A stretch of DNA of 19,229 bases from Candidatus Schekmanbacteria bacterium GWA2_38_11 (GTDB lineage: Bacteria > Schekmanbacteria > GWA2-38-11), in assembly GCA_001790645.1 (NCBI GenBank), contig MGDB01000150.1:1-19229 (forward strand), written 5' to 3'. Shown here one piece after another: positions 1-14,005 of the stretch. The first letter of the stretch is position 1; the number at the start of each line of letters is the position of its first letter. A program made the translations under genes and the position numbers. The notes beneath the pieces are model-generated. The model worked only from the letters and a program-made list of their open reading frames with translations, searched no databases and had not been told where the DNA came from.

Positions 1-11
1 AACCATAAAGC

Positions 12-43
12 AACCCGTTTTGCGGGTTCGATAAATCGAACCC
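12..43. repeat. Two overlapping, mutually exclusive hairpins
   Basis: AACCCG (12-17) can pair with CGGGTT (23-28) across a 5-base loop. The bases 24-32 (GGGTTCGAT) can instead pair with ATCGAACCC (35-43) across a 2-base gap. The shared GGGTT segment means only one fold can form at a time. The second arm resembles a GGTTCGATAAATCGAACC-type repeat that I recall as common in environmental genomes. No gene lies between it and smpB, so a role as an intergenic repeat or as the 3' end of an upstream transcript are both possible. Confidence 0.6.
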
Positions 44-227
44 CTACAAGTGAGTGAAAACCTTCAACAGTTAAAATCCCTGGGATTCTTCAAGCCTTTA
101 CAGTTTTTTGATCCAAGTTTCATAAAAGAATTTCATTGATTTGATTTTATTAAATGTGGTAACAAGTTCAGGACATTTAGTCTGAAACTAAAAGATTCAT
201 GGTGTTAAGCAGGGGTAAAGAAGAAGG

Positions 228-410
228 AAAATTCCCTTTGTCCTCATATTCCAGACTGTGTCACAATGTAGCCGCAACCTTTAGGTTGCGAATAAAATTT
301 TTTTAATATCAATGAGCTTAACGCAGGCTACCTGCCTGCCGGCAGGCAGGTAGCCTGCGGCTACCATTAAAACATGAGTTATGACACAGTCTGTTTCAAA
401 GGGGAATTTT
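228..410. repeat. Nested inverted-repeat element (MITE-like)
   Basis: Three blocks of the left arm find their reverse complements, in order, in the right arm. AAAATTCCCTTTG (228-240) pairs with CAAAGGGGAATTTT (397-410, one extra G). CAGACTGTGTCA (252-263) pairs with TGACACAGTCTG (382-393). GTAGCCGCA (268-276) pairs with TGCGGCTAC (356-364). The interior holds a CGCAACC-TTTA-GGTTGCG hairpin (273-290) and a 38-bp palindrome. There is no transposase and no convincing ORF inside. The shape fits a non-autonomous mobile element or a composite of stacked palindromes. It lies just upstream of smpB. Confidence 0.6.
322..359. repeat. Perfect 38-bp palindrome with a 20-bp repeated core
   Basis: The bases 322-340 are the exact reverse complement of 341-359. 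The centre is CCTGCCTGCCGGCAGGCAGG (331-350), which recurs exactly at 16071-16090 and 18450-18469. The outer 9 bp (CGCAGGCTA / TAGCCTGCG) form their own stem, so the 20-mer looks set into the apex of an existing hairpin. It could be a mobile palindrome, a protein-binding site or a recombination by-product. Confidence 0.8.
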
Positions 411-437
411 GAATTTCCTGTTTTAGTTTAGTAAATA
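409..437 (+). promoter_or_regulatory. Possible sigma-70 promoter for smpB
   Basis: TTGAAT (409-414) and TAAATA (432-437) are separated by 17 bases, and transcription would begin just before the GAGGG-containing leader of smpB. The match is partial and the surroundings are AT-rich, so this could be chance. The smpB run may also be read through from genes left of the window. Confidence 0.3.
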
Positions 438-461
438 TTAAAGAGGGAATTTATAGAATAA

Positions 462-935
462 ATGGCAGATTCTAAAAAATCTTTAAAAGACGTTAAAACT
501 GTTTGTACAAACAGGAAGGCATATCATGATTACTTTCTAACCGAGACCTTTGAGGCAGGTATATCCTTAAAAGGGACTGAAGTAAAATCGCTGCGGGATG
601 GAAAAGCAAATTTGAAAGACAGTTATGCAACGATAAAAGACGGGGAAATGTATCTGATGAACTGTCACATAAGTCCTTATTCTGCGGGTTCAAGGGAAAA
701 TCCTCCTCCTACAAGAACAAGAAAACTTCTCATGCACAGAAGAGAAATCGAGAGGCTTTTAGGGAAAACAAAGGAAAAAGGGTTTACTCTGGTCCCAGTG
801 AAGATTTACTTTAAAAAAGGGTATGCAAAGGTTGAACTGGCTCTGGGAAAGGGGAAAAAGCTTTTTGATAAGAGAAGAGCGATAAAGGAAAAGGAATCAA
901 AGCGGGAGATTGAAAGAGCTTTGAAAAAAAGATGA
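462..935 (+). CDS. smpB: SsrA-binding protein SmpB
   Basis: SmpB binds tmRNA and delivers it to ribosomes stalled on broken messages, the first step of trans-translation in the cytoplasm. The 157-residue product has the usual family length. It shows the family landmarks: an early Asn-Arg-Lys-Ala-Tyr-His block, GTEVKSLRDGKANLKDSY near residues 38-55, the NCHISPYS stretch, the RKLLMHRREI segment, and a basic tail with KLFDKRRAIKEKE that enters the decoding centre. The ATG is preceded by AAGAGGGAAT about 15 bases upstream, a rather distant ribosome site. The last four bases overlap the start of the amidase gene (ATGA), so the two are translationally coupled. No tmRNA gene is visible in the window. 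Identification is secure. Confidence 0.96.
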   Translation: MADSKKSLKDVKTVCTNRKAYHDYFLTETFEAGISLKGTEVKSLRDGKANLKDSYATIKDGEMYLMNCHISPYSAGSRENPPPTRTRKLLMHRREIERLLGKTKEKGFTLVPVKIYFKKGYAKVELALGKGKKLFDKRRAIKEKESKREIERALKKR

Positions 936-1705
936 TTAGAAAGAAAAAAGATTACCAATCAATTTTTTATATTTTATTTACCCTGTTAGTTCTTTATCTG
1001 CTGTCCCCTGAACTGTCTTCAATTGCCAAGGAGGAGCCGGTAAAGCCAAATAAGAAGCTTGTAGTCATTGACGCTGGTCATGGAGGGAAAGATACCGGCG
1101 CCAGTGGCGTTTCAGGACTGACAGAAAAAGGTATTACTTTAAAACTGGCTTTGATCCTGAGGGATATGCTTATAAAAAAGCCAAACCTGAATGTTCTTCT
1201 TACAAGGACTGAAAATATAGACATTGCTCCTGAAAAAAGGGTCTCTCTGGCAAATTCAAAAAGTGCAGATATCTTTTTAAGCCTTCATGTAAACGGTTCA
1301 TTTGATCCGGCTCAGAAAGGAATCGAAATATATTACTATTCTGAAGAGAATTTGGAATTATTCCTCCAGGCAAGTCCTGGTCAAACCTTAAGTCCTAAGG
1401 CTGAATCCGAAGAAACAAGTACTCTTATCTCTACCTGGAATGAAGCACAAAACGCATTTATACCTAAGAGCCTTAAACTTGCAAAGATTCTTGATGATAA
1501 TCTGCGTAAATTGCAAGATTTAGAAGTGAGAGGAATAAGACCAGCACCTCTTTATGTGCTTACAGGAACTACAATGCCTTCCCTGGTTATTGAAGCGGGG
1601 TTTGTCACTAACACGGCTGAAGAGTCTGCTCTTGCAAGGGATGAGTATTTAAAGGCTATTGCTTCTAAAATTGCAGATGGAATTGGTGAATATTTTGAAG
1701 AGTAA
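932..1705 (+). CDS. N-acetylmuramoyl-L-alanine amidase (Amidase_3/AmiC type)
   Basis: A zinc hydrolase that cuts the amide bond between N-acetylmuramic acid and the stem peptide, typically during daughter-cell separation or wall turnover. Residues 12-30 are hydrophobic and form a signal peptide or anchor, so the enzyme acts in the periplasm. The catalytic domain starts near residue 42 with VVIDAGHGGKDTGA. The likely zinc ligands and catalytic acids are His50, Glu65 (GLTEKG), His119 (SLHVN) and Glu221 (VIEAGFVTN). Residues 148-175 carry an extra loop of the type that can occlude the active site in AmiC/AmiB enzymes. No AMIN or SPOR targeting domain is present. The start overlaps smpB by four bases. 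Next to GerMN and murI it belongs to a cell-wall cluster. Confidence 0.92.
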   Translation: MIRKKKDYQSIFYILFTLLVLYLLSPELSSIAKEEPVKPNKKLVVIDAGHGGKDTGASGVSGLTEKGITLKLALILRDMLIKKPNLNVLLTRTENIDIAPEKRVSLANSKSADIFLSLHVNGSFDPAQKGIEIYYYSEENLELFLQASPGQTLSPKAESEETSTLISTWNEAQNAFIPKSLKLAKILDDNLRKLQDLEVRGIRPAPLYVLTGTTMPSLVIEAGFVTNTAEESALARDEYLKAIASKIADGIGEYFEE

Positions 1706-1745
1706 AAGAAGTGAGTGAGGAGTAGTAAATTCTAAATAATTTTAA

Positions 1746-2354
1746 ATGACAAAAATTCAAAATTCAAAGCTGTATGATTTGATCCTCAAGAGTTTAACCA
1801 GATACCGCTTTGTTTTTTTTCTTCTATTACTCTTTCTCATCCCCATATCATTAAATTGCAGTAAAAATGAATTAACAGAGAAAAAATCTTCAGAGGAAAC
1901 AAAAGGGGTTAATGGAAAAGAGGAGATGGCAGTAAAGATTTTTTTTCTTAATGGTTCACAATTAGCTTATGAGGAAAGAACTATTTCATTTGACAGATGG
2001 AAGCCTTCTAAAAAAATAAGCAGTGCATTGGAAGAGCTTATAAAAGGACCTAAGAAGGAGCCTCTTAAGCCTACTTTACCTAAGAAGACAAAGCTCATAA
2101 ATGTTTTTATTGATGAGGAAGGTGTAACTTATATCAATTTTTCAAAAGATATAATAATTAACCACCCGGGAGGGACATTTGGAGAATTAATTACAATTTA
2201 TTCTATAATTCGTACCCTGACCGAGAATTTTGAGGAAGTTCAGGCTGTGCAGATTTTAATAGGTGGGAAAGAGATAAATACTCTAATAGGGCATATAGAT
2301 ACTTCAATGCCTTTTAAGCTAAAAAGCTTTTCTGAAACTTCCCTTAACCAATAG
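1746..2354 (+). CDS. GerMN-domain lipoprotein
   Basis: The 202-residue product has a basic, hydrophobic N-terminus (about 20-37) ending in SLNCSK, with Cys38 as the likely lipidated residue, although the lipobox is not canonical. A low-complexity Glu/Lys linker follows, then a GerMN domain from about residue 60 to 192. That domain includes VKIFFLNG, a predicted helix with ISSALEELIKGPKKE, the IDEEGVTYINFSKD strand pair, and a second helix with TIYSIIRTLTEN. GerMN domains occur in Bacillus GerM and in many non-sporulating Gram-negatives beside amidase, murI and rph genes. The function there is unsettled, but location and partners point to envelope or peptidoglycan work. It starts 41 bases after the amidase stop with no strong ribosome site. 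Confidence 0.85.
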   Translation: MTKIQNSKLYDLILKSLTRYRFVFFLLLLFLIPISLNCSKNELTEKKSSEETKGVNGKEEMAVKIFFLNGSQLAYEERTISFDRWKPSKKISSALEELIKGPKKEPLKPTLPKKTKLINVFIDEEGVTYINFSKDIIINHPGGTFGELITIYSIIRTLTENFEEVQAVQILIGGKEINTLIGHIDTSMPFKLKSFSETSLNQ

Positions 2355-2389
2355 GGATGGCGGAAGAAGAAAATGCAAAGTGAAAAATT

Positions 2390-2437
2390 AAATCCCCCCC
2401 TAATCCCCCCTTTAGAAAAGAGGGGTTGGGGGGATTT
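2390..2437. repeat. C-rich/G-rich palindromic repeat (AAATCCCCC family)
   Basis: AAATCCCCCCCTAATCCCCC on the left pairs imperfectly with AGAGGGGTTGGGGGGATTT on the right around a short AGAAA-type loop. I recall this class (AATCCCCC...CCTTT...AAAGG...GGGGGATT) as a dispersed intergenic repeat in many bacterial genomes. It fills the GerMN-murI gap and could act as a weak terminator or processing site, although no T-run follows it. Confidence 0.75.
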
Positions 2438-2530
2438 GTTTAAAGTGATGATTTAAAATTCTGAGGTTTTAGATTTTGAACTATGGTTTTTAGTTTTTCA
2501 AACCTTTATGGACAATTGAAATGAGGAGAG

Positions 2531-3340
2531 ATGAATTTTAGATATAATAAAAAGCCAATAGGAGTTTTTGACTCGGGGATAGGAGGTCTTACAGTATTAA
2601 AACAGGTGATGAAGCTGCTACCCAATGAAAACTCCATATATCTTGGCGATACTGCAAGAGTTCCTTACGGGACTAAGTCACAGGAAACAGTGAGGAGATA
2701 CACATTTCAGAATATCCACTTCCTTTTAGAAAAAGGGATTAAGATATTGGTGATAGCATGTAATACTGCAACAGCTCACAGTCTTGAGATAGCAAAAAAG
2801 ACATTTCCAATTCCAATAATCGGAGTTATTGAACCTGGTGCCAGGGCAGCAGTGCGGGTAAGCAAGAAAAAAAGAGTTGGTGTAATAGGGACTTTTGGAA
2901 CTATTGAGAGCTCTGTATATAACAGGGCGATTCTTTCTCTGGATCCCAAATTCAAAATATTTTCAAAACCATGCCCTTTGTTTGTATCCCTGGCAGAAGA
3001 AGGCTTAACCAGAGGGAGAATTGCCAGAACCATAGCTGACAGATATCTGACTCCTCTTAAACAAAAAAGAATTGATGCCCTTGTCCTTGGATGCACCCAT
3101 TACCCTTTGCTTAAAGGTACTATCCAAAAATCAATCGGGAAATCTGTAAAATTAATTGACTCAAGCATTGAAACAGCTAAGGCTGTAAAAGAGGTTTTAA
3201 AAGAAAAATCTTTGGAGAATAAAAATTCTACCGGGTCTTATCATCATTTTTTTATAAGTGATGCCTCTTCTCATTTTTTAAGAACAGCAAAGCTTTTTCT
3301 TGGGAAAGTGATAGATGATTTTGTTCAGGTGGATTTATGA
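2531..3340 (+). CDS. murI: Glutamate racemase
   Basis: A cofactor-independent racemase that converts L-glutamate to the D-glutamate added to UDP-MurNAc-Ala by MurD, feeding cytoplasmic peptidoglycan precursor synthesis. The 269 residues match the usual length. Visible motifs are GVFDSGIGGLTVL (Asp14, Ser15), YLGDTARVPYGTKS, the first catalytic cysteine in ACNTATA (Cys77), and the second in LGCTHYPLL (Cys188, followed by Thr189-His190). All key residues are present. The ATG follows GAGGAGAG very closely, so the Shine-Dalgarno spacing is short. The preceding 176 bases carry the G/C-rich palindrome and otherwise only AT-rich sequence. The first four-helix-bundle cassette begins immediately after the stop. 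Confidence 0.96.
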   Translation: MNFRYNKKPIGVFDSGIGGLTVLKQVMKLLPNENSIYLGDTARVPYGTKSQETVRRYTFQNIHFLLEKGIKILVIACNTATAHSLEIAKKTFPIPIIGVIEPGARAAVRVSKKKRVGVIGTFGTIESSVYNRAILSLDPKFKIFSKPCPLFVSLAEEGLTRGRIARTIADRYLTPLKQKRIDALVLGCTHYPLLKGTIQKSIGKSVKLIDSSIETAKAVKEVLKEKSLENKNSTGSYHHFFISDASSHFLRTAKLFLGKVIDDFVQVDL

Positions 3341-3346
3341 GAAAGC

Positions 3347-3750
3347 TATAAGCTGTAAGTGATAAGCTGTAGGATAAAATGTCATACACGTTTAAAAATA
3401 TAAAGGTTTGGCAAAAAGCACATGAACTGGTTTTAGAAATCTATAAAGTTACTAAAACTTTCCCAAGTTCTGAAAAGTATGGTTTAACACCACAACTTAG
3501 AAGATCAGTTGCATCTGTAGCTACTAATATTGTTGAAGGTTATAAGAGAAGAAGTGATAAAGACTTTGCTCATTTCCTCAATATCGCTGATGGATCTTTA
3601 GAAGAAACCAAATATCATATGCTTTTGGCTAATGATTTAAAATATATGGATAAGAAAGATTATGAACATTTATCAATATTAGCGGATGAAGTTGGACGTA
3701 TGCTTTCTGCGTTTCAAAAAAAGCTTATGACTTAAAGCTTACAGCTTATA
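3347..3750 (+). repeat. Inverted repeat enclosing four-helix-bundle gene 1
   Basis: TATAAGCTGTAAG (3347-3359) is the exact reverse complement of CTTACAGCTTATA (3738-3750). A second inner pair, ATAAGCT (3362-3368) with AGCTTAT (3722-3728), continues the stem, and its right half lies inside the last codons of the gene. In RNA the two ends would pair and put the whole ORF in the loop. The left arm starts a few bases after the murI stop, and the right arm ends just before the AAGGAG of rph. This recalls 23S rRNA intervening sequences, where the same protein family sits between paired stem arms. Confidence 0.7.
3379..3735 (+). CDS. Four-helix-bundle protein, 23S rRNA-IVP family (copy 1)
   Basis: The 118-residue protein belongs to the four-helix-bundle / 23S rRNA-intervening-sequence protein family, related in fold to the Avd accessory protein of diversity-generating retroelements. 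The signature is the opening Phe-x-x-Ile-x-Val-Trp-x-Lys-Ala and the central LRRSVASVATNIVEGYKRRS (about 40-59), followed by FAHFLNIADGSLEETKYH. It has no signal peptide and is strongly basic and helical, which suits RNA binding. The role of free-standing family members is unknown, and copies inside 23S genes are not needed for growth. A weak AGGA lies four bases before the ATG. It interrupts the murI-rph pair within its own inverted repeat. It is clearly related to copy 2 but diverged from it. Confidence 0.88.
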   Translation: MSYTFKNIKVWQKAHELVLEIYKVTKTFPSSEKYGLTPQLRRSVASVATNIVEGYKRRSDKDFAHFLNIADGSLEETKYHMLLANDLKYMDKKDYEHLSILADEVGRMLSAFQKKLMT

Positions 3751-3763
3751 ACTAAGGAGTTAA

Positions 3764-4486
3764 ATGACAGTGCGGCATGATGGACGAAACTATAATGAAT
3801 TAAGAAGAGTAAAAATCAAAAGAAGATTTCTAAAAAATCCACCTGGGTCTGTGCTAATTTCTTTAGGTGAGACAAAAGTTCTCTGTACAGCCACGATTGA
3901 GGAAAAAGTTCCTCAGTTTTTAGAAAAAACAGGGAGAGGGTGGATAACTGCGGAGTATTCGCTTCTTCCAGGCTCTACACATACAAGAACAAGGCGTGAG
4001 GCATCAGCAGGGAAACTCAGCGGGAGGACACAGGAAATCCAGAGGCTAATCGGAAGAGCCCTTCGTTTAACTGCAGACTTAACCCTCCTTGGTGAGAGGA
4101 CAATCTGGATAGACTGTGATGTTCTCCAGGCAGATGGAGGGACAAGGACGGCAGCTATAACCGGTGCCTATGTGGCATTAATGGATGCCATAAGATTTTT
4201 GCTTTCTAAAAAGGTAATCAATGCAAATCCGGTTAAAGAGCAGGTTGCCGCAGTAAGCGTTGGTATTGTAAATGGGAAAATAAGCCTGGATTTAGACTAC
4301 CAGGAGGATTCCGGTGCAGATGTTGATATGAATGTAATAATGACTAAAAGCGGGAAGCTTGTGGAACTGCAGGCAACAGCTGAAAAAAAACCTTTTACTA
4401 AAAAAGATTTAGATAAACTCCTGACGCTTGCCCACAGAGGGATCTCACAGCTTATTGAGGTTCAAGAAAAAGTATTAATAAAGTAA
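3764..4486 (+). CDS. rph: Ribonuclease PH
   Basis: A phosphorolytic 3'-5' exoribonuclease that trims the 3' ends of tRNA precursors and works as a hexameric ring in the cytoplasm. The 240 residues match the family. Visible landmarks are RHDGR near the N-terminus, [31 protein letters not shown] (86-101), the phosphate-binding GGTRTA (125-130) within [20 protein letters not shown], and the acidic cluster [18 protein letters not shown] (176-193), which includes Asp178, Asp182 and Asp186. The ATG has a good AAGGAG site seven bases upstream, directly after the right arm of the first cassette, so RNA folding there could affect its translation. In many genomes rdgB follows rph. Here a four-helix-bundle gene does. 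Confidence 0.95.
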
Positions 4487-4488
4487 AG

Positions 4489-4920
4489 AGAGTTAAAGAG
4501 TTAGTGAGTTGGAGAGATAAGCTGATAGCTTAGTAATGAAATATGGCAAAGATAGAAAAATTTGAGGATATTCAAGTATGGGGAAAAGCAAGAGAGCTAA
4601 ATAAGAAAATATATTATATTACTAAGGATCATTCTTTTTCTAAGGATTATTCTCTCAGAGATCAGATTAGGAGGTCTTCAATTTCTATAATGGCAAATAT
4701 AGCAGAAGGCTTTGGACGTAGGAGCAGGAAAGAATTTGCAAACTTCTTAAATATGGCTCATGGCTCAGCAGCCGAGGTTCAATGTCATCTTTATGCAGCA
4801 TTAGATCAAAATTATATCAATCAGAAAAGTTTTAATGAATTATATGCAAAAGTTGAGGAAGTTTCAAAGATGATAAAAGGTTTCATGAATTATCTTAAAA
4901 CTCCTTAACTCATAACTCTG
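4489..4920 (+). repeat. Imperfect inverted repeat enclosing four-helix-bundle gene 2
   Basis: The left flank just after the rph stop contains AGAGTTAAAGAGTTAGTGAG (4489-4508). The right flank CTCCTTAACTCATAACTCT (4901-4919) reads, in reverse complement, AGAGTTATGAGTTAAGGAG, a match of roughly 17 of 20 positions with one gap. As in copy 1, the right arm overlaps the end of the ORF, and both arms are built from short repeated units, here GAGTTA. A local hairpin TAAGCT-GAT-AGCTTA (4518-4532) sits just before the ATG. The arm sequence differs from cassette 1, so each cassette carries its own matched pair. Confidence 0.6.
4543..4908 (+). CDS. Four-helix-bundle protein, 23S rRNA-IVP family (copy 2)
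   Basis: A second, 121-residue member of the family. The opening KFEDIQVWGKAREL and the central IRRSSISIMANIAEGFGRRS (about 42-61), followed by EFANFLNMAHGSAAEVQCHL, match the family pattern. Relative to copy 1 the conserved Arg-Arg, Asn-Ile and Glu-Gly positions are kept, but much of the rest differs, so it is not a recent tandem duplicate. No signal peptide or membrane segment is present. No good ribosome site precedes the ATG, and a small hairpin occupies that place. It lies between rph and leuS inside its own inverted repeat. The molecular function of such stand-alone copies is not known. Confidence 0.88.
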   Translation: MAKIEKFEDIQVWGKARELNKKIYYITKDHSFSKDYSLRDQIRRSSISIMANIAEGFGRRSRKEFANFLNMAHGSAAEVQCHLYAALDQNYINQKSFNELYAKVEEVSKMIKGFMNYLKTP

Positions 4921-4937
4921 CAACTACTAAAAATTTC

Positions 4938-4966
4938 TTGACAATGAACCAGTTTCAATTGAATAT
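4938..4966 (+). promoter_or_regulatory. Possible leuS promoter, nearly leaderless
   Basis: A consensus TTGACA (4938-4943) is followed after 17 bases by GAATAT (4961-4966), a poor -10. If used, the transcript would begin within a few bases of the leuS ATG at 4975. That would fit the absence of a Shine-Dalgarno site and suggest leaderless translation. The weak -10 keeps confidence low. Confidence 0.3.
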
Positions 4967-4974
4967 TTTGAGTT

Positions 4975-7476
4975 ATGAAATACGAACCTAAAATAATAGA
5001 AGATAAATGGCAGAAAATTTGGGAAGAGAAAAAAACCTTTGCTGCCCGTCCGGATAAGAACAGACAAAAATATTATATCCTTGAAATGTTTCCTTATCCA
5101 TCTGGAAGGATCCACATGGGTCATGTGAGGAATTATGCAATTGGCGATGTTATTGCGAGGTATAAATGGAGAAAAGGGTTTAATGTACTCCATCCGATGG
5201 GCTGGGATTCCTTTGGACTTCCTGCTGAGAATGCTGCTATTAAGCATAAGATCCATCCCACAAAATGGACTGAGGAAAATATAAGCTATATGAGAGCTCA
5301 GCTTAAAAGCCTTGGTCTTAGTTATGACTGGGACAGAGAAATATTTACGTGCAGGGAAGACTATTACAAATGGTGTCAGTGGTTTTTCTTGAAATTTTAT
5401 GAAAAGGGACTTGCCTACCAGAAAGAGGCTTTAGTTAACTGGTGCGAGTCTTGCAAAACAGTACTTGCCAATGAGCAGGTTGAGGACGGTAGATGTTGGA
5501 GGTGTGAGACTGAGGTAATCCAGAAAGAAATGAAACAATGGTTTTTCAAGATCACCCACTATGCTGAAGAGCTTCTTTCAGAACTTGAAAATTTGAAAGG
5601 ATGGCCTGAAAGGGTCCTGACAATGCAGAGAAACTGGATCGGCAAAAGCTATGGGGCTGAGATAATATTTCCGGTTTCTGATAAGAACTTTTCTATTACG
5701 GTTTTTACCACAAGGCAGGATACAATCTTTGGTGCGACCTTTATGAGCATTGCCCCTGAAAACCCGATTGTCAGGGAACTTATCAAAGGGACAGAATATG
5801 AAAAACCGGTAACTGAATTTGTGGAAAATGTTAGAAAAGAAAATAAGATTCTAAGGACAGATGCGACAAGAGAGAAGGAAGGAATTTTCACCGGAAGATA
5901 CTGCATAAATCCCATGACAGGATGGAAGATGCCCATATTTGCTGCAAACTTTGTTTTAATGGATTACGGGACAGGAGCAGTAATGGCTGTTCCTGCCCAT
6001 GACCAGAGAGATTTTGAATTTGCAAAAAAAATTGGACTTCCTGTTAAGGTTGTAATCCAGCCTCCTGGAGTAGAGCTTAATGCAGAATCACTTGAATCTG
6101 CTTATACTGAAGAAGGAGTTTTAGTGAACTCCAAAGAATTCTCCGGCATGAAAAATACTGAAGCAATGGAAGCCCTTGTATCCTATTTCCAGAAGAACGG
6201 GATAGGGAGAAAAGTAGTAAATTACAGGCTTAAAGACTGGGGGATTTCAAGGCAGAGATACTGGGGAGTTCCGATCCCGATAATTTATTGCGATAGCTGC
6301 GGAGTTGTCCCTGTGCCTGAGGCCGATTTGCCGGTACGTCTGCCAATGAACCTGCAATTTGATAATATTGGTGACTCGCCGCTTAAAGGCTGTGATGAGT
6401 TTGTAAACACAACTTGCCCGAAGTGCAGGAAAAAGGCAAAGCGGGAAGTGGATACAATGGATACCTTTGTAGATTCTTCGTGGTACTTCTCAAGATACTG
6501 CAGCCCACAGAGCAAAACATCCCCTTTGGAGAAGGAAGAGCTGAATTACTGGATGCCCGTTGACCAATATATAGGAGGTATTGAACATGCGGTGCTCCAC
6601 CTTCTCTATGCAAGATTTTTTACAAAGGTGATAAGGGATCTGGGTTTTTTAAATAGAGGTGAGCCATTCACCAATTTATTGACTCAGGGCATGGTTATTA
6701 AGGATGGAGCAAAGATGTCAAAGTCAAAGGGGAATATAGTTGACCCTGATGACCTGATAAAAAAATATGGTTCTGATACAGTAAGACTTTTTTGCTTGTT
6801 CGCATCTCCTCCTGAAAGGGATTTGGACTGGAGTGATGAAGGGGTTGAAGGTGCCTTCAGATTCCTTTGCAGGGTCTGGAGATTACTTGATGAGGAAGAA
6901 AAAAACTTCTCTCATAATAGTCCTTTCAGTGGAATAAAGGATTTAACTGGACAGGAAACCATCTCAGAAGATGCAAAGACCCTTTTAAAAAGATGTCATA
7001 AAACTATAAAGAAGGTATCAGATGATATAGAGCAAAGATTTCACTTCAATACTGCAATTGCTTCAATAATGGAGCTAGTCAATGCTTTGTACCTTATAGA
7101 TAAGAATGATTTTAAAAAAGATGATTCATTAAGGAGTGTATATTTTTTCTCGGTTGAAACTGTGCTTTTACTCCTTTCGCCGTTTGCACCTCATATTTGT
7201 GAGGAGTTGGGGCAGAGGCTTGGAAAGGCCGGTACAATATTTGAGCAACCATGGCCTGGCTATGATGAAAAAATGTTAATCGATGAGGAAATAACCATTG
7301 TTATTCAGATTAACGGCAAGATGAGAAGCAAAATTTCTGTTCCTGCTCAAGCCCCAGAGGAGGAGATTAAACAGATTACTATTAACAATGAGAAAGTTAA
7401 AGACCTTCTTAAAAATAAAAAGATTATAAAATCAATTTTGGTGCCTAAGAGACTAATAAATCTTGTAGTAAAGTGA
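4975..7476 (+). CDS. leuS: Leucyl-tRNA synthetase
   Basis: A class I aminoacyl-tRNA synthetase that charges tRNA-Leu with leucine in the cytoplasm. At 833 residues it is slightly shorter than the E. coli enzyme. The HIGH-type signature is His47-Met-Gly-His50 within [21 protein letters not shown] zinc-ribbon insert has Cys157, Cys160, Cys174 and Cys177. The CP1 editing domain shows [12 protein letters not shown] and [19 protein letters not shown], including the threonine-rich and aspartate positions needed to clear mischarged tRNA. The catalytic fold resumes with [15 protein letters not shown] and the KMSKS loop at 580-584. An anticodon-binding helical domain and a C-terminal tRNA-contact domain ([13 protein letters not shown]) follow. 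lptE begins seven bases after the stop, so the two are probably co-transcribed. Confidence 0.97.
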
Positions 7477-7483
7477 AATTTAA

Positions 7484-8011
7484 ATGGGAAAAACAATAAT
7501 ATCTTTAGCATTACTCATAACCTTTTCAGGTCTTCTCTTTATGCCAGGTTGTTATCATTTAGTTGGCTCTGGCAGTTCAGAGGTCAGCAAGGATATAAAA
7601 AACCTGGCAATACCTATTTTTAAGAATAAAACTGATGTGGCCGGGATTGAGATGATTGTTACTGATGCCGTGATAAAGGAATTCACCTCTTTTTCTCCTG
7701 GAAAAATAACGGATATTGAACATGCAAAGGCTGTTATTGAAGGGAAGATCACTTCCTATAGTCTTGAAACAATAGCCGCTGATAAAAGAGATAAGGTTCT
7801 TGAGTATCGCCTCAGAGTTAGGCTTGAGATAGCTTTAAAGGATATTGAGGAAAATAATATTCTTTATGAGAATAAAAATTTTGAAGGCCATATTGATTTT
7901 AAGGTTCCGAAGGACTCCATTTCGCGCAAACGGGGAGAGGAAAATGCCTGCCAGAGATTAGCAGAAGAGCTTTCCAAACGGTTTGTCGGTGAGATCTTTG
8001 AAGGGTTTTAG
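7484..8011 (+). CDS. lptE: LPS-assembly lipoprotein LptE (LptE/RlpB family)
   Basis: LptE is an outer-membrane lipoprotein that plugs the LptD barrel and helps place lipopolysaccharide in the outer leaflet. The 175-residue product begins with a lipoprotein signal peptide ending in PGCYHL, with Cys23 as the acylated residue. The start of the mature protein (Cys-Tyr-His-Leu, then KDIKNLAIPIFKNKTDVAGIE) is typical of LptE in Nitrospirota and deltaproteobacteria-like genomes. The rest is mixed alpha/beta and ends with ACQRLAEELSKRFV. It sits seven bases after leuS, a common arrangement (leuS-lptE). In many such genomes holA follows, but here the repeat-filled 8012-8257 gap follows instead. Sequence conservation in this family is low, so the call leans on the signal peptide and the context. 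Confidence 0.82.
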   Translation: MGKTIISLALLITFSGLLFMPGCYHLVGSGSSEVSKDIKNLAIPIFKNKTDVAGIEMIVTDAVIKEFTSFSPGKITDIEHAKAVIEGKITSYSLETIAADKRDKVLEYRLRVRLEIALKDIEENNILYENKNFEGHIDFKVPKDSISRKRGEENACQRLAEELSKRFVGEIFEGF

Positions 8012-8016
8012 TCAAC

Positions 8017-8137
8017 CAACTGCAATATTTGGCGTTATACTGCGTCAGTTGCGGCTCACAAATACTCACATACCACTCAGTATGCTCCGTTTTGTTCACC
8101 GACAACTTCCTTGTCTAACTCTCAAATCTTGCAGTTG
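8017..8137. repeat. Long imperfect palindrome (121 bp) after lptE
   Basis: The ends CAACTGCAATATTTG (8017-8031) and CAAATCTTGCAGTTG (8123-8137) are reverse complements at 14 of 15 positions. Partial complementarity continues inward through AGTTG / CAACT blocks to a central CATAC-CACTCA-GTATG stem. The central phrase CACATACCACTCAGTATG resembles a dispersed repeat I recall from Geobacter-like and other environmental genomes. The short open frame running through it is best read as repeat DNA, not a gene. Confidence 0.65.
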
Positions 8138-8183
8138 TCTAAAACATCCTGTTTCCAAGTTTATATAACAGATATTCGTAGAA

Positions 8184-8201
8184 ACAGACCTTTAGGTCTG
8201 T
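8184..8201. repeat. Hairpin with ACCTTTAGGT core
   Basis: ACAGACC (8184-8190) and GGTCTGT (8195-8201) form a perfect 7-bp stem around TTTA. The core ACCTTTAGGT and a nearby upstream GTAG match the hairpin at 273-290, so these are probably two members of one short palindrome family. It lies between convergent lptE and rpsT and could help end transcription in both directions, but no T-run is attached. Confidence 0.65.
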
Positions 8202-8232
8202 TGTTAACGGAGCTATCCTAGCCGGCAGGTAG

Positions 8233-8250
8233 AGGCAAGGGCTATTGCCT
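8233..8250 (-). terminator. Hairpin directly after rpsT, possible terminator
   Basis: AGGCAA (8233-8238) pairs with TTGCCT (8245-8250) around GGGCTA, starting a few bases beyond the rpsT stop on the minus strand. No uridine tract follows, so an intrinsic terminator is only a possibility. A degenerate half of the 20-bp palindrome (GCCGGCAGGT) lies beside it at 8221-8230. Confidence 0.35.
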
Positions 8251-8257
8251 GCTTCTA

Positions 8258-8533
8258 TCAAGCTGCTTCTTCTGACAGAGTATTAACTTTTTTTGTAAGC
8301 CTTGAAATCTTTCTTGAAGCTGTGTTTTTATGGATTACACCCTTTGCGGCTGCCTTATCAATTACAGATATGGCTTTTCCCAGTGATACCTTTGATTTTT
8401 CCAGGTTTCTTGATTCAACTGCAAGTAAAAGTTTTTTTACAGTAGTTTTAACCTGCGATTTTACTATGATGTTTCTTTCTCTTCTTTTTTCACTCTGTCT
8501 AATTCTTTTTTCAGCTGATTTAGTTTTTGCCAA
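8258..8533 (-). CDS. rpsT: 30S ribosomal protein S20
   Basis: S20 is a primary 16S rRNA-binding protein of the small subunit body. The 91-residue, Lys/Arg-rich, all-helical product has the expected length and pattern: AKTKSAEKRIRQSEKRRERN at the N-terminus, a middle helix with KTTVKKLLLAVE, and AAAKGVIHKNTASRKISRLTKKV near the C-terminus. The start codon is TTG, with a strong AAAGGAG upstream on the minus strand. TTG is well known for rpsT in E. coli (UUG), where it contributes to autogenous control, so the rare start may be meaningful here. A good sigma-70 promoter lies immediately upstream, divergent from the next gene. Confidence 0.95.
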   Translation of the reverse strand: MAKTKSAEKRIRQSEKRRERNIIVKSQVKTTVKKLLLAVESRNLEKSKVSLGKAISVIDKAAAKGVIHKNTASRKISRLTKKVNTLSEEAA

Positions 8534-8557
8534 AATATAGTCTCCTTTAAGGTTTTT

Positions 8558-8586
8558 TTATAACAAAATTAAAAACAAAGTGTCAA
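8558..8586 (-). promoter_or_regulatory. Sigma-70 promoter of rpsT
   Basis: On the minus strand TTGACA (8581-8586) and TTATAA (8558-8563) are exactly 17 bases apart. The leader to the TTG start is about 20-25 bases and contains AAAGGAG. This is a near-consensus promoter at the expected place. Confidence 0.75.
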
Positions 8587-8623
8587 GAACTTTTAAAAAT
8601 TTTTCTTTTATTAGAAGTTACTG

Positions 8624-8653
8624 TTGACACCATTCATAAAATTATGTTAATGT
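8624..8653 (+). promoter_or_regulatory. Sigma-70 promoter of the secreted His-Cys protein
   Basis: TTGACA (8624-8629) is followed after 18 bases by TAATGT (8648-8653), preceded by TG one base away, an extended -10 arrangement. Transcription would begin near 8660, giving a leader of about 50 bases with AAAAGGAG before the GTG start. It is divergent from and about 40 bases away from the rpsT promoter. Confidence 0.55.
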
Positions 8654-8712
8654 TCAAATCGTAAATAAAAAGGGGAAAATATTTTAAAAACTATTTTAAA
8701 AAAAGGAGACCT

Positions 8713-11451
8713 GTGGTGAGTAGAAATCTTAGTATTCCAATAATAATTTTTAGCATTTTGATAACTTTTTCCATTATTGCAATTCCTGTTACTGATGTGG
8801 TTTTACACGCTTATAGCATTAGCGAGGTATCCAATGTGGCTAAGGTTAAGATAACTCACATTATTACCACTACAGTTGGTGAGAATGGGAAACTCAAACC
8901 TAAAGGAGAAGTAAAAGTAAGAGATGGAAAAAACAAGTTATTCAAAGCTACTCCCAAAAAAGGTTACAAGGCAATAATTAAAGTGGACGGTCAGATAGTT
9001 AAGACGGGAAAAGTTGGGAAACCATGTACGTATAAATTGAAAAACGTTGTAGCAGATATGACTCTTGAAGCCTTGTTTGAGAAGGGTACAACCGCAAATT
9101 CAAATTCGATTTCTATCGCTATTATAGGGCTTGGTGAATCTATTAAAGTTACCAATACGACCCCTGCAACCTTTGCCGGGTATGCTGATTCTGGCATTGG
9201 AATTTCTAAAGTAGAGTTTTTTAACGATACCACAGGTACAAGTGGGACTGCCACAGGAACAACGGAATGGAGTGCTGCTATTGCTCTTAAAGAGGGAGAC
9301 AACACACTTCGTTTTGTTGCAACTGCAAAAGACAAAACCACGAGTGAAATCTCTACAATTGTAACCTATTATCCTGATCTGGACTTTACAACCGCACTTT
9401 CACTATCTAGTGACACGGTTTACATTGGTGAATCTGAAGATGTTACATTTACTATTGGATTAGGGAATACAACAGATGCCGTTGTAAAACTCTATCAAAC
9501 TGATGAAAATGGAGAAAACCCGGTTGAACTGGGTGAAATGAAGGATGATGGAACTTTACCAGATGAAATTCAGGGAGACGGAGTTTTTACTCTTCTCCAA
9601 ACAATATCTTCTATTGATGAAGGACATCTCTATTATCGTGTTGGGGTAACTAAGGGTGAAAAATCTTATTTCTCTGAAACCGCTTCTATCTGGGCAACTC
9701 AACACTTTAGCAGTGAACAGGTCCAAACTGCAGTAAGCACTGCGGATTCTGCAAAAGAAATTTATGACACAGCTATTTCAGAAAGTAAAACCTTGGAGGA
9801 AGCTGCAAAAGAAGTAAAACAATCCCTGAGTAACGACCCGAATATAGGCGCAACTGATACTACAGGGGTTGGAGGGGTATGGTGGATTACAAACGATGGA
9901 ATTCTCGGGCTTTACCACCCAACAATAGATGGTGAAAAGTCTGGAAGCTCTCAAGATGGAAACCGAAGCGTTCAGGCAAAAGCCTCTCAACAGCCAGTAC
10001 AAAATACTCAACTTGAAGTTTTTTATTACCCTGCATCATATCTCCAAGATCGCTCTCAGTATGTTCCAAACTACTTAAGCAACAAGACAGGATTGGAGAA
10101 AAGCTCAAAAATGACGGCAGCGGCAACTGAAACTAAAAACGAGATCAAAAGCAAGAAGGGCTTACTAATCAGCCCCTATATCAACAATCCTAATACTACT
10201 TCTAATTTTGGAAATGGGGATGATTATTATGTTCCGTGGAAAACTATCAAAGACAAAAAATCCTGCGCTTTGTCTGCATCTGCTGAAATACTAAATAACG
10301 GTTCTGTAAATGTTACAATAGACTCGTTCAAGAACTTGTCAGATTACGGATATATTCATATATCTACCCATGGCGACAACTTCTTCGCTGGACTTCTCGG
10401 ACTGTGGCAAGAAGCATGGGGACCAAATGACTTCCTGAAAGGAGCGCTTTCTCAGGTGGTCATTTTGACAGGGTTAAAAATTCCCAAGAACGCTGACGGT
10501 ACTTTTGACATTACTGGCTATGAAAATGATATAAAAGCCAAGAGGATTGCAATTTCACCAAGCGGAACAGTTTCTTTGCTTCCCAAGTTTTTCTCAGACT
10601 ATCTCACCCAACTTCCTAACAGTCTCGTAGTCCTTAGTGCCTGCAGATCAATGTATAATAATTCAATGGCTAATGCATTCCTTTCAAAGGGAGCTGGTGG
10701 AGTTGTAGGGTATTCTGACTACGTCGCAACCTCATATGCTCAAAACACTCTAAATAAAATCATTAACGATATGTTTGACAATAAAACTTTAGCTCAGGGA
10801 GTTGCTGACGCAATAAGCACATACGGTTCAAATGATGCAGATAAGGATCCTGCCTACCTATATTATGCAGGCAGCGGTGATCTTCTCCTACCTTCAGGAG
10901 ACCTTGAAAATGCAGGGTTTGAAGACGGTGTACTAACTCCTTGGTCAAAAGAAGGTGATGGCAGGATTATTACCCAACTTGGAGGCACATCACCTACAGA
11001 AGGCTCATATATGGGTATTGTTTCAACAGGGCTTGGATATACAACACAGAGCGGTTCGATTGAACAGGAATTCTGCGCTTCTCCAAAGCTCAGCAAATTG
11101 AGTTTTGACTGGAACTTTTTCTCCGAAGAATTCAAGGAATACTGCAACTCAATTTATCAGGATACATTCAGAGTCAGCATTTCAGTATATGATGACGCAA
11201 CAGATACGTGGACAGAGACTGAGCTTTTTAGCAGGAATGTTGATGATCTTTGCGGTTCAGTTTCAGAATCAGATGTGGGTTTCGACCGGGGTGGTGTCTA
11301 CGACACAGGATGGAACACTAACCAGGAGATTGATGTATCAGCCTATGTTGGGAAGCATCTTAGGCTTAAATTTTACGCTACTGATGTGGGAGACAGTATT
11401 TACGATACAGCCATACTGGTTGATAATATTGTCCTTACCGATGCACCTTAG
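8713..11451 (+). CDS. Secreted multidomain protein with CHAT/C25-like His-Cys domain
   Basis: The 912-residue product starts with a hydrophobic signal peptide (about 8-34), so it is exported. An InlB-type bacterial repeat domain follows (about 46-118: GENGKLKPKGEV, KGYKAIIKVDG, NVVADMTLEALFE). Next come an Ig-like domain (about 135-217), a beta-rich stalk-like domain (about 224-333) and a helical linker. Residues about 430-722 resemble clan CD cysteine peptidases of the CHAT/C25 kind: a hydrophobic strand into HISTHGDN with His553, then LVVLSACRS with Cys644, followed by FLSKGAGGVVGYSDYV. The C-terminal domain (about 731-912: ENAGFEDGVLTPW, GSYMGIVSTGLGY, FDWNFFSEEF) resembles choice-of-anchor / carbohydrate-binding-like modules. 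The start is GTG, and a second in-frame GTG follows directly. Natural substrate and target are unknown, and peptidase activity is inferred from the dyad only. Confidence 0.72.
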   Translation: MVSRNLSIPIIIFSILITFSIIAIPVTDVVLHAYSISEVSNVAKVKITHIITTTVGENGKLKPKGEVKVRDGKNKLFKATPKKGYKAIIKVDGQIVKTGKVGKPCTYKLKNVVADMTLEALFEKGTTANSNSISIAIIGLGESIKVTNTTPATFAGYADSGIGISKVEFFNDTTGTSGTATGTTEWSAAIALKEGDNTLRFVATAKDKTTSEISTIVTYYPDLDFTTALSLSSDTVYIGESEDVTFTIGLGNTTDAVVKLYQTDENGENPVELGEMKDDGTLPDEIQGDGVFTLLQTISSIDEGHLYYRVGVTKGEKSYFSETASIWATQHFSSEQVQTAVSTADSAKEIYDTAISESKTLEEAAKEVKQSLSNDPNIGATDTTGVGGVWWITNDGILGLYHPTIDGEKSGSSQDGNRSVQAKASQQPVQNTQLEVFYYPASYLQDRSQYVPNYLSNKTGLEKSSKMTAAATETKNEIKSKKGLLISPYINNPNTTSNFGNGDDYYVPWKTIKDKKSCALSASAEILNNGSVNVTIDSFKNLSDYGYIHISTHGDNFFAGLLGLWQEAWGPNDFLKGALSQVVILTGLKIPKNADGTFDITGYENDIKAKRIAISPSGTVSLLPKFFSDYLTQLPNSLVVLSACRSMYNNSMANAFLSKGAGGVVGYSDYVATSYAQNTLNKIINDMFDNKTLAQGVADAISTYGSNDADKDPAYLYYAGSGDLLLPSGDLENAGFEDGVLTPWSKEGDGRIITQLGGTSPTEGSYMGIVSTGLGYTTQSGSIEQEFCASPKLSKLSFDWNFFSEEFKEYCNSIYQDTFRVSISVYDDATDTWTETELFSRNVDDLCGSVSESDVGFDRGGVYDTGWNTNQEIDVSAYVGKHLRLKFYATDVGDSIYDTAILVDNIVLTDAP

Positions 11452-11484
11452 TAACTAAGTTTTTTGTCAGTTGTGAAATTAATG

Positions 11485-11512
11485 GCTGGGGCGTGGTAAA
11501 CCGCGCCCCAGC
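11485..11512 (+). terminator. Strong GC hairpin after the His-Cys protein gene
   Basis: GCTGGGGCG (11485-11493) and CGCCCCAGC (11504-11512) form a perfect 9-bp stem. The loop TGGTAAACCG can extend it with GGT/ACC. Stability fits a terminator or a 3' end-protecting structure, but no T-run follows. The first possible ATG of the downstream lipoprotein begins at the very next base. Confidence 0.5.
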
Positions 11513-11524
11513 ATGCTTTATGGT

Positions 11525-11971
11525 ATGAAGATGCTTAAACTAATAATATTAGCCGGATTTGTAACAGCTTGTTCGCTTAACTTCTCAGAACAGGGCAATA
11601 AAGCATCTTCATCCTTTAAGATTCCAAATCTTGGAGTTGTATCTCTACTTAATGCCAAGGGTAAAAATGTTGACGAAAAATGCATGACTGACATAATTTT
11701 AAAGATAATTACCTTATGCGATGAGAACAGGCTTGAACCTATTAAAACTGAAATCTGGAAAGACCATACGGTAGTTAAAGAGGCAATGGCTGAACTGGCA
11801 GTTAAGATAGAGAGAAGTCCAGCAGGAAAAAACTTTAATATCCTGATTCCTGTCAAATACAAAGGTAGCCGCATTATCCTCTATAAGGAGGGTGAGAACA
11901 TTTCCGAATATTCCTTCTATAGCCTTCCTGAAAATACACCTGATATTGATTTTTCTAAATGCATAAGGTAG
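11525..11971 (+). CDS. Small putative lipoprotein of unknown function
   Basis: Not recognised as a known family. The frame opens at 11513, but that ATG abuts the hairpin. Starting at 11525 gives MKMLKLIILAGFVTACS, a short lipoprotein signal with a VTAC lipobox, and about 148 residues. The mature part has a Ser/Lys linker, then an alpha/beta pattern: GVVSLLNAKGKNV, a helix with DIILKIITLCDEN, TEIWKDHTVVKEAMAELAVKIE, and beta-rich ILIPVKYKGSRIILYKEG. It ends in a conserved-looking FSKCIR. Additional cysteines (in KCMTD, TLCDE and SKCIR) could form a disulfide. There is no clear Shine-Dalgarno. Its place right after the secreted His-Cys protein suggests, without proving, a common role such as a partner or inhibitor. 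Confidence 0.6.
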   Translation: MKMLKLIILAGFVTACSLNFSEQGNKASSSFKIPNLGVVSLLNAKGKNVDEKCMTDIILKIITLCDENRLEPIKTEIWKDHTVVKEAMAELAVKIERSPAGKNFNILIPVKYKGSRIILYKEGENISEYSFYSLPENTPDIDFSKCIR

Positions 11972-12104
11972 GAAACCCTGCTAATTTTTTTATTTACAAC
12001 TATTTTTACATTTGTTACAGGTGAAAACGTTTTTAATCATTTAATGAAGTATAAGGATTGTGAACAACTGGCGAATTATTAAAGAACTTGTAGGGGCTTA
12101 ATAA

Positions 12105-13685
12105 ATGAATCAACTTTTTGCAAAAAAGCCGCTAAGCCTGCTTCTGGAAGAAATGGCAGGCGAACACAGGCTGCGCCGTGTGCTGGGTCCGGTCCAGCTT
12201 ACAAGTCTTGGTGTGGGCGCTATCATCGGTACCGGTATCTTTGTTCTCACGGGTGTGGCAGCACATGACAGAACCGGACCGGCGCTTATTCTTTCATTCG
12301 TAATATCCGGGATAGCATGTATCTTTGCAGCGCTCTGCTATGCTGAATTTGCCTCAATGGTTCCGGTTGCAGGTTCAGCGTATACATACGCTTATGCTAC
12401 GATGGGTGAGTTATTTGCATGGATTATTGGGTGGGATCTTGTGCTCGAATATGCAGTTGCCTCTTCAACAGTAGCTCATGGTTGGTCTCACTACTTTCAG
12501 GATTTCATAGGTATTTTCGGACTGAAGATTCCTTATGCGCTTACCAATGCCCCTTTTGATTATGATCCGAAGACCGGTATTCTTGCTCTGACCGGAACAA
12601 CCCTTGATCTGCCTGCTGTTGTCATTGCAGCAATTGTTACAATAGTTCTTGTAAAAGGAATCAGGGAAAGTGCCAGTTTTAATGCTGTAATGGTGTGCAT
12701 AAAGGTTGCAATTGTTTTATTTGTAATTGGTGTAGGCTCATTTTATGTTAATCCTGCTAACTGGCACCCTTTTGCTCCTTATGGTTTGACAGGAATAAGT
12801 TTTTTTGGAAAGACTCTGTCTGGTCAGACAGGAGGAGGCGGAGAACCTCTCGGGATGCTTGCAGGTGCGGCAATAATATTTTTTGCCTATATAGGATTTG
12901 ACTCGGTATCAACACATGCTGAGGAGGCACGCAAACCTAAGCGTGATGTACCTATTGGCATTGTTGCATCGCTTATCATTTGTACCATTCTCTATATTGC
13001 TGTTTCGGCTGTGTTAACAGGAATGGTTCCTTATGATCAAATTGATATCAATGCTCCGGTGTCAAATGCGTTTGGGAAAGTAGGATTGCCATGGGCCCAG
13101 TTTTTGATATCACTTGGTGCAATAGCCGGTATAACTTCAGTCTTGCTTGTGATGATGCTTAGTCAGCCACGGGTGCTGCTTGCAATGGCGCGTGATGGGC
13201 TTGTTCCGCATAGTTTTTTTGGGGCGATTCATGAGCGCTTCAGGACGCCCTGGAAAGCTACTATCCTTACAGGAGCATTTGTGGCATTAATGGCGGCATT
13301 TGTGCCTCTCAGAATTTTGGCTGAGTTAGTAAATATCGGAACGCTGCTGGCATTTGTAATTGTCTGTGGTGCAGTTCTTATTATGCGAAAGACAAACCCT
13401 GATGCAGAGCGGCCATTCCGCGTACCATTTGCCCCTCTTACACCAATCCTTGGTATCGCTTTTTGTTTGCTTTTAATGTTTTCTTTACCTCCTGAGAACT
13501 GGATGCGGTTGTTCATATGGCTTGCAATCGGCCTTTTAATCTATTTCAGCTACGGAAAGAAGCACAGTGTAATGTCACGGTATCTTACCAAGGAAATCGC
13601 CAAACATGGAGTTTCCCCAGCGGGATCACTTGCTACTGATATCAATACAAAAACAGGAGATGCGGATGAAACAGTTTCCAAGTAA
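12105..13685 (+). CDS. APC-superfamily amino acid permease (CAT/YfnA type)
   Basis: A cytoplasmic-membrane transporter, probably for amino acids by proton symport. Of 526 residues, the N-terminal ELRR-like segment HRLRRVLGPVQLTSLGVGA leads into TM1 with the substrate-loop signature GAIIGTGIFVLTG. Further hydrophobic segments follow, about 12 in all. TM3 region GSAYTYAYATMGELFAWIIG, the conserved FFAYIGFDSVSTHAEEARKP loop and MLSQPRVLLAMARDGLVP are hallmarks of the cationic amino acid transporter / YfnA branch. The tail of about 45 residues is hydrophilic. An AGGGG lies about 9 bases before the ATG. Hand counts of two 60-base stretches give 45% and 57% GC against 33% in one stretch of atpI, so its composition differs from the operon to its right. 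Specific substrate cannot be told from sequence. Confidence 0.9.
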   Translation: MNQLFAKKPLSLLLEEMAGEHRLRRVLGPVQLTSLGVGAIIGTGIFVLTGVAAHDRTGPALILSFVISGIACIFAALCYAEFASMVPVAGSAYTYAYATMGELFAWIIGWDLVLEYAVASSTVAHGWSHYFQDFIGIFGLKIPYALTNAPFDYDPKTGILALTGTTLDLPAVVIAAIVTIVLVKGIRESASFNAVMVCIKVAIVLFVIGVGSFYVNPANWHPFAPYGLTGISFFGKTLSGQTGGGGEPLGMLAGAAIIFFAYIGFDSVSTHAEEARKPKRDVPIGIVASLIICTILYIAVSAVLTGMVPYDQIDINAPVSNAFGKVGLPWAQFLISLGAIAGITSVLLVMMLSQPRVLLAMARDGLVPHSFFGAIHERFRTPWKATILTGAFVALMAAFVPLRILAELVNIGTLLAFVIVCGAVLIMRKTNPDAERPFRVPFAPLTPILGIAFCLLLMFSLPPENWMRLFIWLAIGLLIYFSYGKKHSVMSRYLTKEIAKHGVSPAGSLATDINTKTGDADETVSK

Positions 13686-13945: not shown

Positions 13946-13965
13946 GAAATATAATTTAAAAAAAA

Positions 13966-13984: not shown

Positions 13985-14005
13985 TACAATCTTAGAAGGA
14001 AAAAA

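Follow-up and report, generated by a model that had tools for sequence, protein, structure and literature searches.

In Coxiella the intervening sequence (IVS) of the 23S rRNA has tandem heptamers of the form GACAGAT upstream of its S23p open reading frame, and the same account states that S23/IVP proteins have no known function and that the protein of Xanthomonas campestris is a homopentamer (PMC4990558). Tandem heptamers have been described elsewhere as well: GGGAATC units of Xanthomonas and GGGGA(C/T)T units of Nostoc form intergenic arrays that were studied as G-quadruplexes, with convergent pairs stated for 70 cases among 186 arrays and for 75 among 183, and the available main text of that paper contains neither 'four helix' nor 'S23' (PMC4692102). 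The P6b region of the Nostoc trnL intron is made of degenerate heptamer stems with paired arms within a group I intron (PMC4476775), and Beggiatoaceae carry TAACTGA repeats (PMC4679880); the available portions of these two accounts make no mention of a PF05635 gene.

The DNA analysed here (the window) is a stretch of 19,229 nucleotides, positions 1-19,229 of the forward strand of contig MGDB01000150.1 of Candidatus Schekmanbacteria bacterium GWA2_38_11 (GCA_001790645.1). One strand of the window encodes, in this order, murI, an ORF of 118 aa, rph, an ORF of 121 aa and a leuS-like gene, and each of the two small ORFs lies between inverted arms. The features are:

2531..3340, + strand: murI (glutamate racemase), upstream neighbour of cassette 1 (NCBIfam TIGR00067, 5e-78)
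3343..3371, + strand: left arm of cassette 1, a degenerate heptamer array whose register places the start of the first unit at 3340
3379..3735, + strand: cassette 1 ORF, 118 aa, 23S_rRNA_IVP/four helix bundle family (PF05635, 1.3e-41; TIGR02436, 2e-40)
3722..3753, - strand: right arm of cassette 1, an inverted heptamer array with, between the matched units, one unit more than the left arm
3764..4486, + strand: rph (ribonuclease PH), downstream neighbour of cassette 1 (TIGR01966, 2.6e-112)
4489..4520, + strand: left arm of cassette 2, a degenerate octamer-like array, AGAGTTAA AGAGTTAG TGAGTTGG AGAGATAA (score 16)
4543..4908, + strand: cassette 2 ORF, 121 aa, 23S_rRNA_IVP family, between rph and leuS (PF05635, 1e-39)
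4890..4919, - strand: right arm of cassette 2, placed by arm alignment
4975..7476, + strand: leuS-like ORF (leucyl-tRNA synthetase) that follows cassette 2, identified by its own sequence

The original prediction, which had been made for the first of these units, described a four-helix-bundle gene inside its own inverted repeat, and much of this anatomy is confirmed. Both reported pairs exist, a perfect one of 13 bp (3347-3359/3738-3750) and one of 7 bp (3362-3368/3722-3728), and the ORF does belong to the 23S rRNA IVS protein/S23 family (PF05635, E 1.3e-41). It is bracketed closely by both neighbours, as had been claimed: the left arm lies within 3 nt of the murI stop, a TGA (3340) that the arm abuts, and the right array, of which 14 nt lie within the ORF, runs as far as 3753, just ahead of the AAGGAG of rph and 10 nt before the rph ATG (3764), at the rph ribosome site. 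What has to be revised is the reading of the arms, since the pairs exist but belong to degenerate tandem heptamers rather than to a simple stem of 13 and 7 bp. In heptamer register the left arm reads AGAAAGC TATAAGC TGTAAGT GATAAGC TGTAGGA and the right arm, inverted, TATAAGC TGTAAGC TTTAAGT CATAAGC; one extra heptamer in the right array explains why the spacing of the two reported pairs is 2 nt in the left arm but 9 nt in the right. The best single alignment of the arms (3343-3368/3722-3747) covers 26 nt with 23 matching and a score of 20, a value reached by none of 2000 dinucleotide shuffles of the flanks and by 37 of 4162 arm pairs swapped between loci (0.9%).

Cassette 2 had been overlooked. 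Its arms (4489-4520/4890-4919) differ from those of cassette 1, are nearer to an 8-nt period and are weaker, the score of 16 being reached by 21 of 2000 shuffles, and the two ORFs fall in different clades of the family tree. Both cassettes sit among protein genes (murI and rph being neighbours) and are not inserted in 23S rRNA; Rfam gives no match in the window at gathering score. In Pfam and NCBIfam the ORFs between the arms match families of the IVP/bAvd type only, with no transposase or catalytic domain.

Other repeats are scattered through the window. The palindrome CCTGCCGGCAGG occurs in three copies (335-346, 16075-16086 and 18454-18465; none expected by shuffles) and is found again in the murI-rph spacer of a related genome (G001, locus L035), which marks it as another dispersed palindromic repeat. 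An inverted repeat noted by eye, CCCCCCTTTAG...AGGGGTTGGGGGG at 2400-2445, between an ORF at 1746-2354 and murI, looks like a further repeat family.

The inverted-arm layout recurs around PF05635 genes across many bacterial phyla. PF05635 loci were collected from named genomes (the best 80 among the matches listed) and, for part of the matches, from the source genome and its relatives; they contain 123 PF05635 genes, of which the 105 that had full 120-nt flanks, contained no N, were unique and encoded 85-180 aa were kept. Inverted arms with a score of at least 16 in equal 120-nt windows flank 69 of these 105 genes; arms swapped between loci reach that score in 75 of 3117 pairs, and control ORFs of the same loci in 23 of 479 cases. 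With the windows extended into the ORF ends, self-matching inverted arms are present at 79 of the 105 genes (60 of 78 from the named genomes, 19 of 27 in the set of the source genome and relatives), as compared to 162 of 4162 swapped pairs (3.9%), and at 65 of 85 genes after thinning at 60% protein identity; the arm score is below 14 in 20 of the 105.

The arms have a distinct period. Lag identity in the arms of the 69 genes is 0.533 at lag 7 and 0.507 at lag 14 (control flanks: 0.303 and 0.297, respectively), and none of the other lags from 2 to 20 stands out (0.25-0.31). Without any selection for inverted arms, a strong lag-7 stretch marks the left flank of 38 and the right flank of 39 of the 105 genes (controls: 16 and 27 of 479), a strong lag-8 stretch those of 12 and 7 (controls: 7 and 3 of 479), and at lags 5, 6, 9 and 10 such a stretch occurs in at most 1 of 105. 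The period of the 79 arm pairs is 7 in 63 cases and 8 in 11. When the left arms of the 63 period-7 pairs are brought into a common phase, A occupies position 5 in 71% and G position 6 in 83%. This phase-locked AG carries 1.89 bits as compared to 1.38 +/- 0.06 (maximum 1.52) in 100 phase permutations, a comparison that gives a slight advantage to the real set, which had 40 random starts as against 8 for each permutation. The coding strand of the left arm is richer in G than in C in 59 of 66 loci and richer in C in 4. None of four 23S motifs is present in the 105 loci, and the 12 of the 80 named loci that were compared with Rfam gave no match at gathering score. Inverted heptamer arms are a family-wide design of PF05635 genes. 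We call the unit, one PF05635 gene between two inverted arrays (NNNNAGN)n, the IVP element, of which 3341-3753 and 4489-4919 in the window are copies.

Could the arms serve as an RNA stem, as they do in rRNA? By this reading they would pair in the transcript, RNase III would cut the stem and the insert would be processed out harmlessly. The original prediction had proposed to fold the region as RNA, and a stem is indeed predicted for the window (z -3.28), where 23 of the 29 left-arm positions pair into the right arm; any inverted repeat would give that result, however, and the predicted stem is there because of the inverted repeat itself. The Coxiella IVS, which is described as excised by RNase III and has its heptamers upstream of the ORF (PMC4990558), is a further argument for the reading. 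So is the sense-direction bias of the elements, both neighbours being co-directional in 33 of 66, both opposed in 3, and mixed or one missing in 30 (raw counts). Then again, selected RNA pairing should favour G-U over A-C mismatches, and the mismatches between the arms of 66 loci contain no excess of the G-U type (123 as against 135 of the A-C type, p 0.49), whereas the positive control, 128 terminator-like hairpins in the fetched loci, does (48 as against 23, p 0.004); arms and terminators differ in this asymmetry with a Fisher p of 0.003. Since the G-U excess is lacking, selection on an RNA stem is not supported, the claim of a stem as a conserved feature is not borne out, and we regard an element acting at the RNA level as unlikely. 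A G-quadruplex as the general basis of the arrays was set aside by eye, as arms such as those of this window have no G runs.

But how would the two arms be kept alike if not by selection on an RNA stem? Arm sequence is alike within an element and different between elements. That the arms change together, as had been anticipated, is seen at the same site in Capnocytophaga felis and C. cynodegmi, where they score 25 and 17 within species and between species only 7, left against left as well as right against right. In 8 of the 11 same-site pairs compared, all between-species scores lie under both within scores, though narrowly in L084/L072 (23 as against 26 and 27); L130/L087, L134/L119 and L115/L135 depart from this rule. 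Over 73 loci the mean identity between arms is 0.83 at the best register, a value biased upward because the best register is chosen, and within one arm at lag 7 it is 0.66. The observed arm scores average 24.4 as compared to 17.3 for simulated independent draws from each locus's own units, and the p value per locus is below 0.05 in 29 of the 73, below 0.01 in 20 and above 0.5 in 10. The simulation thus supports copying between arms for part of the family; the cassettes of the window (p 0.18 and 0.06), being compatible with independent draws from one heptamer pool, are outside that support. We suggest that arms may be kept alike within an element by copying from one to the other. Some close protein relatives differ in having arms, which speaks against the original prediction: L126 has an arm score of 11 and L119 one of 19 with proteins 91% identical, and similar couples of arm-poor and arm-bearing relatives are L139 (8) and L065 (18), at 72% identity, and L118 (9) and L096 (17), at 69%.

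Whether the element moves as a unit is best judged where sites with and without it can be compared. The murI-rph-leuS order without either cassette exists in G001, a genome of the same family (L035), and in G002, a genome of the same taxonomic order (L039). Apart from the source, murI lies upstream of rph in 6 of 30 rph loci (L035, L038, L039, L041, L042 and L061), and none of these six has a PF05635 match (E 1e-6). The empty site anticipated at this junction is found in so far as G001 and G002 lack the gene, but their spacers are too diverged to place the edges. Near-exact empty sites come from cyanobacterial plasmids. At site 1, for which 12 records cover at least 80% of the query and five were compared, the cassette is present in L150 and L159 and absent from L156 and L157, and L158 retains the left arm and a truncated gene; the flanks of L150 and L157 are identical at 299 of 300 and 244 of 250 positions, and GTAAT, single in the empty site, borders the insert at either end. 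Site 5 is filled in L171 and L172 and empty in L154, with flanks of L172 and L154 identical at 282 of 300 and 249 of 250 positions; its junctions read TTCTA on both sides in L171, the right one is TTCTG in L172, and a single G distinguishes the right flank from the empty site. The cassette of L170, which occupies a different site, likewise has ATTCTA at its end, and its empty counterpart L177 lacks this motif, so that the TTCTA letters may belong to the element. An ORF-less element, L175, differs from two empty counterparts (L178 and L179) by 214 nt, with only CG shared. The junction letters GTAAT, TTCTA/TTCTG and CG can equally be read as a duplication, as element ends or as chance homology. 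Filled and empty states also exist at sites 2, 3, 4 and 6 (L155/L160, L153/L164-L166, L152/L168 and L170/L177), with junctions that are not base-exact. Moreover, the L150 cassette recurs with its arms beside other neighbours in L170, L171 and L172 (77.8-82.5% identity), and L150 arms are carried by the ORF-less elements L173-L176. Near-identical plasmids with and without the cassette suggest that it inserts as a unit.

Two further plasmid loci deserve mention. L163, from a related plasmid (site 2), has by eye heptamer arrays around about 130 bp without an ORF, a further ORF-less form. In L151 a PF05635-type gene is flanked by cas6 and cas4 in a plasmid-borne type I-D CRISPR operon; its left heptamer array exceeds 300 bp, and a matching right array is not evident by eye.

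Not all copies need be recent arrivals. Five groups of loci, 16 loci in all, have shared flanks around their PF05635 genes (the same-flank pair L002/L004 was left out for runs of N in both flanks), which implies that many copies may be old residents, and in three same-site pairs dS is as high as 0.99-1.91. One conserved-site group lies between genes that we take, from a protein start, to be sdhA and sdhB; it does not form one clade in the tree, which fits a single as well as a repeated insertion. These data could be accommodated if there were no mobility today, an old resident gene having flanks that gather slippage-prone heptamers by chance and by copying. Such a history would leave the near-identical filled and empty flanks at sites 1 and 5 and the whole cassettes at different loci unexplained, and we consider it very improbable. 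The proposal that arms and protein form a cassette outside rRNA thus stands on the empty states, the different sites and the ORF-less forms, with the qualification that some close protein relatives have low arm scores; the cassette nature itself is well supported.

The genome from which the window derives holds PF05635 at five places, one of them partial with an internal stop. Four of these copies are in the tree, two of which share a clade of seven rows; the remaining two stand separately outside it, adjoining rows of other lineages in a tree with many unresolved forks. Repeats without the gene occur as well. The pattern (AAGCTNN)3 of this window's arms, with up to 2 mismatches allowed, matches 127 times on one strand and 101 times on the other (228; these overlap, so that 228 is not a count of elements), as compared to 2 and 4 (6) for the reversed pattern. 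Among 20 regions taken from this match list and partly chosen for visible inverted pairs, seven (L210-L213, L215, L216 and L218) contain short convergent ORF-less pairs with 76-130 nt between them, and L221 has an inverted pair built of another unit; tblastn (E 0.01) found no PF05635 remnant in the 20 regions. Across 60 relatives and the source genome, at least 10 matches to the array pattern with one mismatch occur only in G000 (75), G001 (29) and G021 (78). These three and G019 carry PF05635, as do 24 of the 61 genomes altogether, and the highest array count in a genome without it is 4; in G019, a PF05635-bearing genome, the reversed pattern has 68 matches and is not a neutral control. The co-occurrence of arrays and PF05635, resting on 4 array-rich genomes of 61, is suggestive only.

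Two observations on these repeats stand apart. The ORF-less heptamer pairs L211 and L216 enclose a second palindrome, TGTAGGGCAA...TTGCCCTACA, so that repeat families nest. In G011 partial PF05635 matches form nine closely spaced head-to-head pairs, one of them weak, which look as if an inverted duplication of a PF05635 gene had spread there.

An ORF-bearing form that is rarer than the dispersed inverted pairs without an ORF calls to mind REPINs, doublets of REP sequences with single palindromes as arms that are reportedly moved with an IS200-like transposase (RAYT). By analogy an IS200-like Y1 transposase might move the heptamer hairpins, the PF05635 gene being a passenger or regulator. This genome has five Y1_Tnp matches, and at two of the five loci (L232 and L234) AAGCT-type arrays lie within about 700 bp, as judged by raw nearness, and L232 has an additional array on its opposite side, at a distance of about 1.5 kb. 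No array abuts a Y1 gene, however, and three of the five loci, two of them clipped by contig ends, have no array. The gene inside the arms is moreover PF05635, and it is maintained: dN/dS is 0.04-0.19 in eight divergent pairs of 12 (rough values, as dS is 0.90-3.09), the remaining pairs being saturated in one case and near-identical and hence uninformative in three (0.86, 0 and none). The PF05635 protein is under purifying selection, and we regard a REPIN/RAYT-like system with PF05635 as passenger or regulator as unlikely.

What, then, would the protein do? It is basic, with a pI of 9.2 for the cassette 1 product, a median pI of 9.07 among the 105 proteins and a pI above 8 in 72% of them. The family has a sequence match to structure 2gsc, XCC0516, which from its name we take to be the Xanthomonas campestris homopentamer mentioned above. 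A relative of known structure, basic charge and a repeat unit of fixed length would suit a ring-shaped protein in which each subunit takes up one heptamer; the TRAP protein, for comparison, takes one triplet per subunit. An alternative is offered by the relation of the protein to Avd, a partner of reverse transcriptase (RT): it would work together with an RT and the element would move through RNA. The bAvd profile matches copy 1 at 4.2e-15, over the cut-off, and the sense-direction bias of the copies would suit this route as well, yet the Avd equivalog scores are 53.1 and 21.2 bits as compared to a cut-off of 80, and there are no RVT_1 matches in this genome, which is 70% complete. We think it highly improbable that the element moves in this way.

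Taken together, we propose that the IVP element is a small mobile element whose arrays are bound by its own basic, probably ring-shaped protein and which is moved by an enzyme acting in trans, a reading to which we assign a probability of roughly one half; the heptamer binding and the trans-acting enzyme are what we infer beyond the cassette itself. The protein, probably a pentamer, would bind the AG-bearing strand of the arrays, perhaps with one heptamer per subunit, and draw the two ends together, and an enzyme supplied in trans, either of replication and repair or a Y1 transposase, would then copy or move the unit. The left neighbour is within reach for 62 of 66 elements and co-directional in 51 of the 62, and in 31 of these 51 the arm starts within -12 to +15 nt of the stop of the left gene. 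This frequent placement at tight operon junctions and in the sense direction would make expression possible with the least disturbance to the neighbours.

How does such an element relate to the systems already described? With the IVS of 23S rRNA, as in Coxiella, both cassettes of the window share a PF05635-type ORF inside complementary arms, and the Coxiella heptamer GACAGAT, which was not used in deriving the consensus, fits NNNNAGN when read as TGACAGA (PMC4990558). The cassettes are unlike that IVS in lying between protein genes and in having arms without an RNA-pairing signature. Like a transposon or insertion sequence, the element has terminal inverted repeats, which are self-specific at 79 of 105 genes and present in the window's own copies; unlike one, it encodes between them no transposase detectable with Pfam or NCBIfam. 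With the REPIN/RAYT system it shares dispersed ORF-less inverted pairs (seven here, and L173-L176 in plasmids) next to an ORF-bearing form with the same repeats, but its protein, a four-helix bundle, has no transposase domain and its arms are tandem heptamers. Its relation to the Avd of diversity-generating retroelements is one of profile (PF22296; 4 of 6 matched phage records are annotated Avd), whereas its proteins stay below the Avd equivalog cut-off and this 70%-complete genome has no RT match.

The convergent pairs described for Xanthomonas and Nostoc have the same orientation as the cassette arms, although the Xanthomonas unit has GG where the cassette arms have AG and the arms of the window are without G runs (PMC4692102). 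NNTGAGT of P6b and the complement of TAACTGA both contain AG with a period of 7, as do the cassette arms (PMC4476775, PMC4679880). Judged by these motifs, the Xanthomonas, P6b and TAACTGA heptamers look related to the arms of the IVP element, which we offer as a suggestion. More tentatively, IVP elements might be a widespread class of mobile DNA in their own right, its NNNNAGN arrays being recognised, one unit per subunit, by a ring protein without catalytic activity; the intervening sequences of rRNA, the orphan heptamers of Xanthomonas, Nostoc and Beggiatoaceae and the trnL P6b stems would be members or ORF-less relatives of that class. S23/IVP proteins have solved structures, and the inverted (NNNNAGN)n arrays provide a concrete candidate ligand for the whole family. 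Such a partner sequence would also unite several repeat types that have been described separately, and with it the long-standing notion of mobile intervening sequences in rRNA becomes testable in plasmids of laboratory cyanobacteria. The literature searched, which included few subscription papers, contained no description of heptamer arms at PF05635 genes outside rRNA. The protein family, the rRNA insert and the heptamer repeats were each already known; their union as a mobile unit outside rRNA did not come up in that literature.
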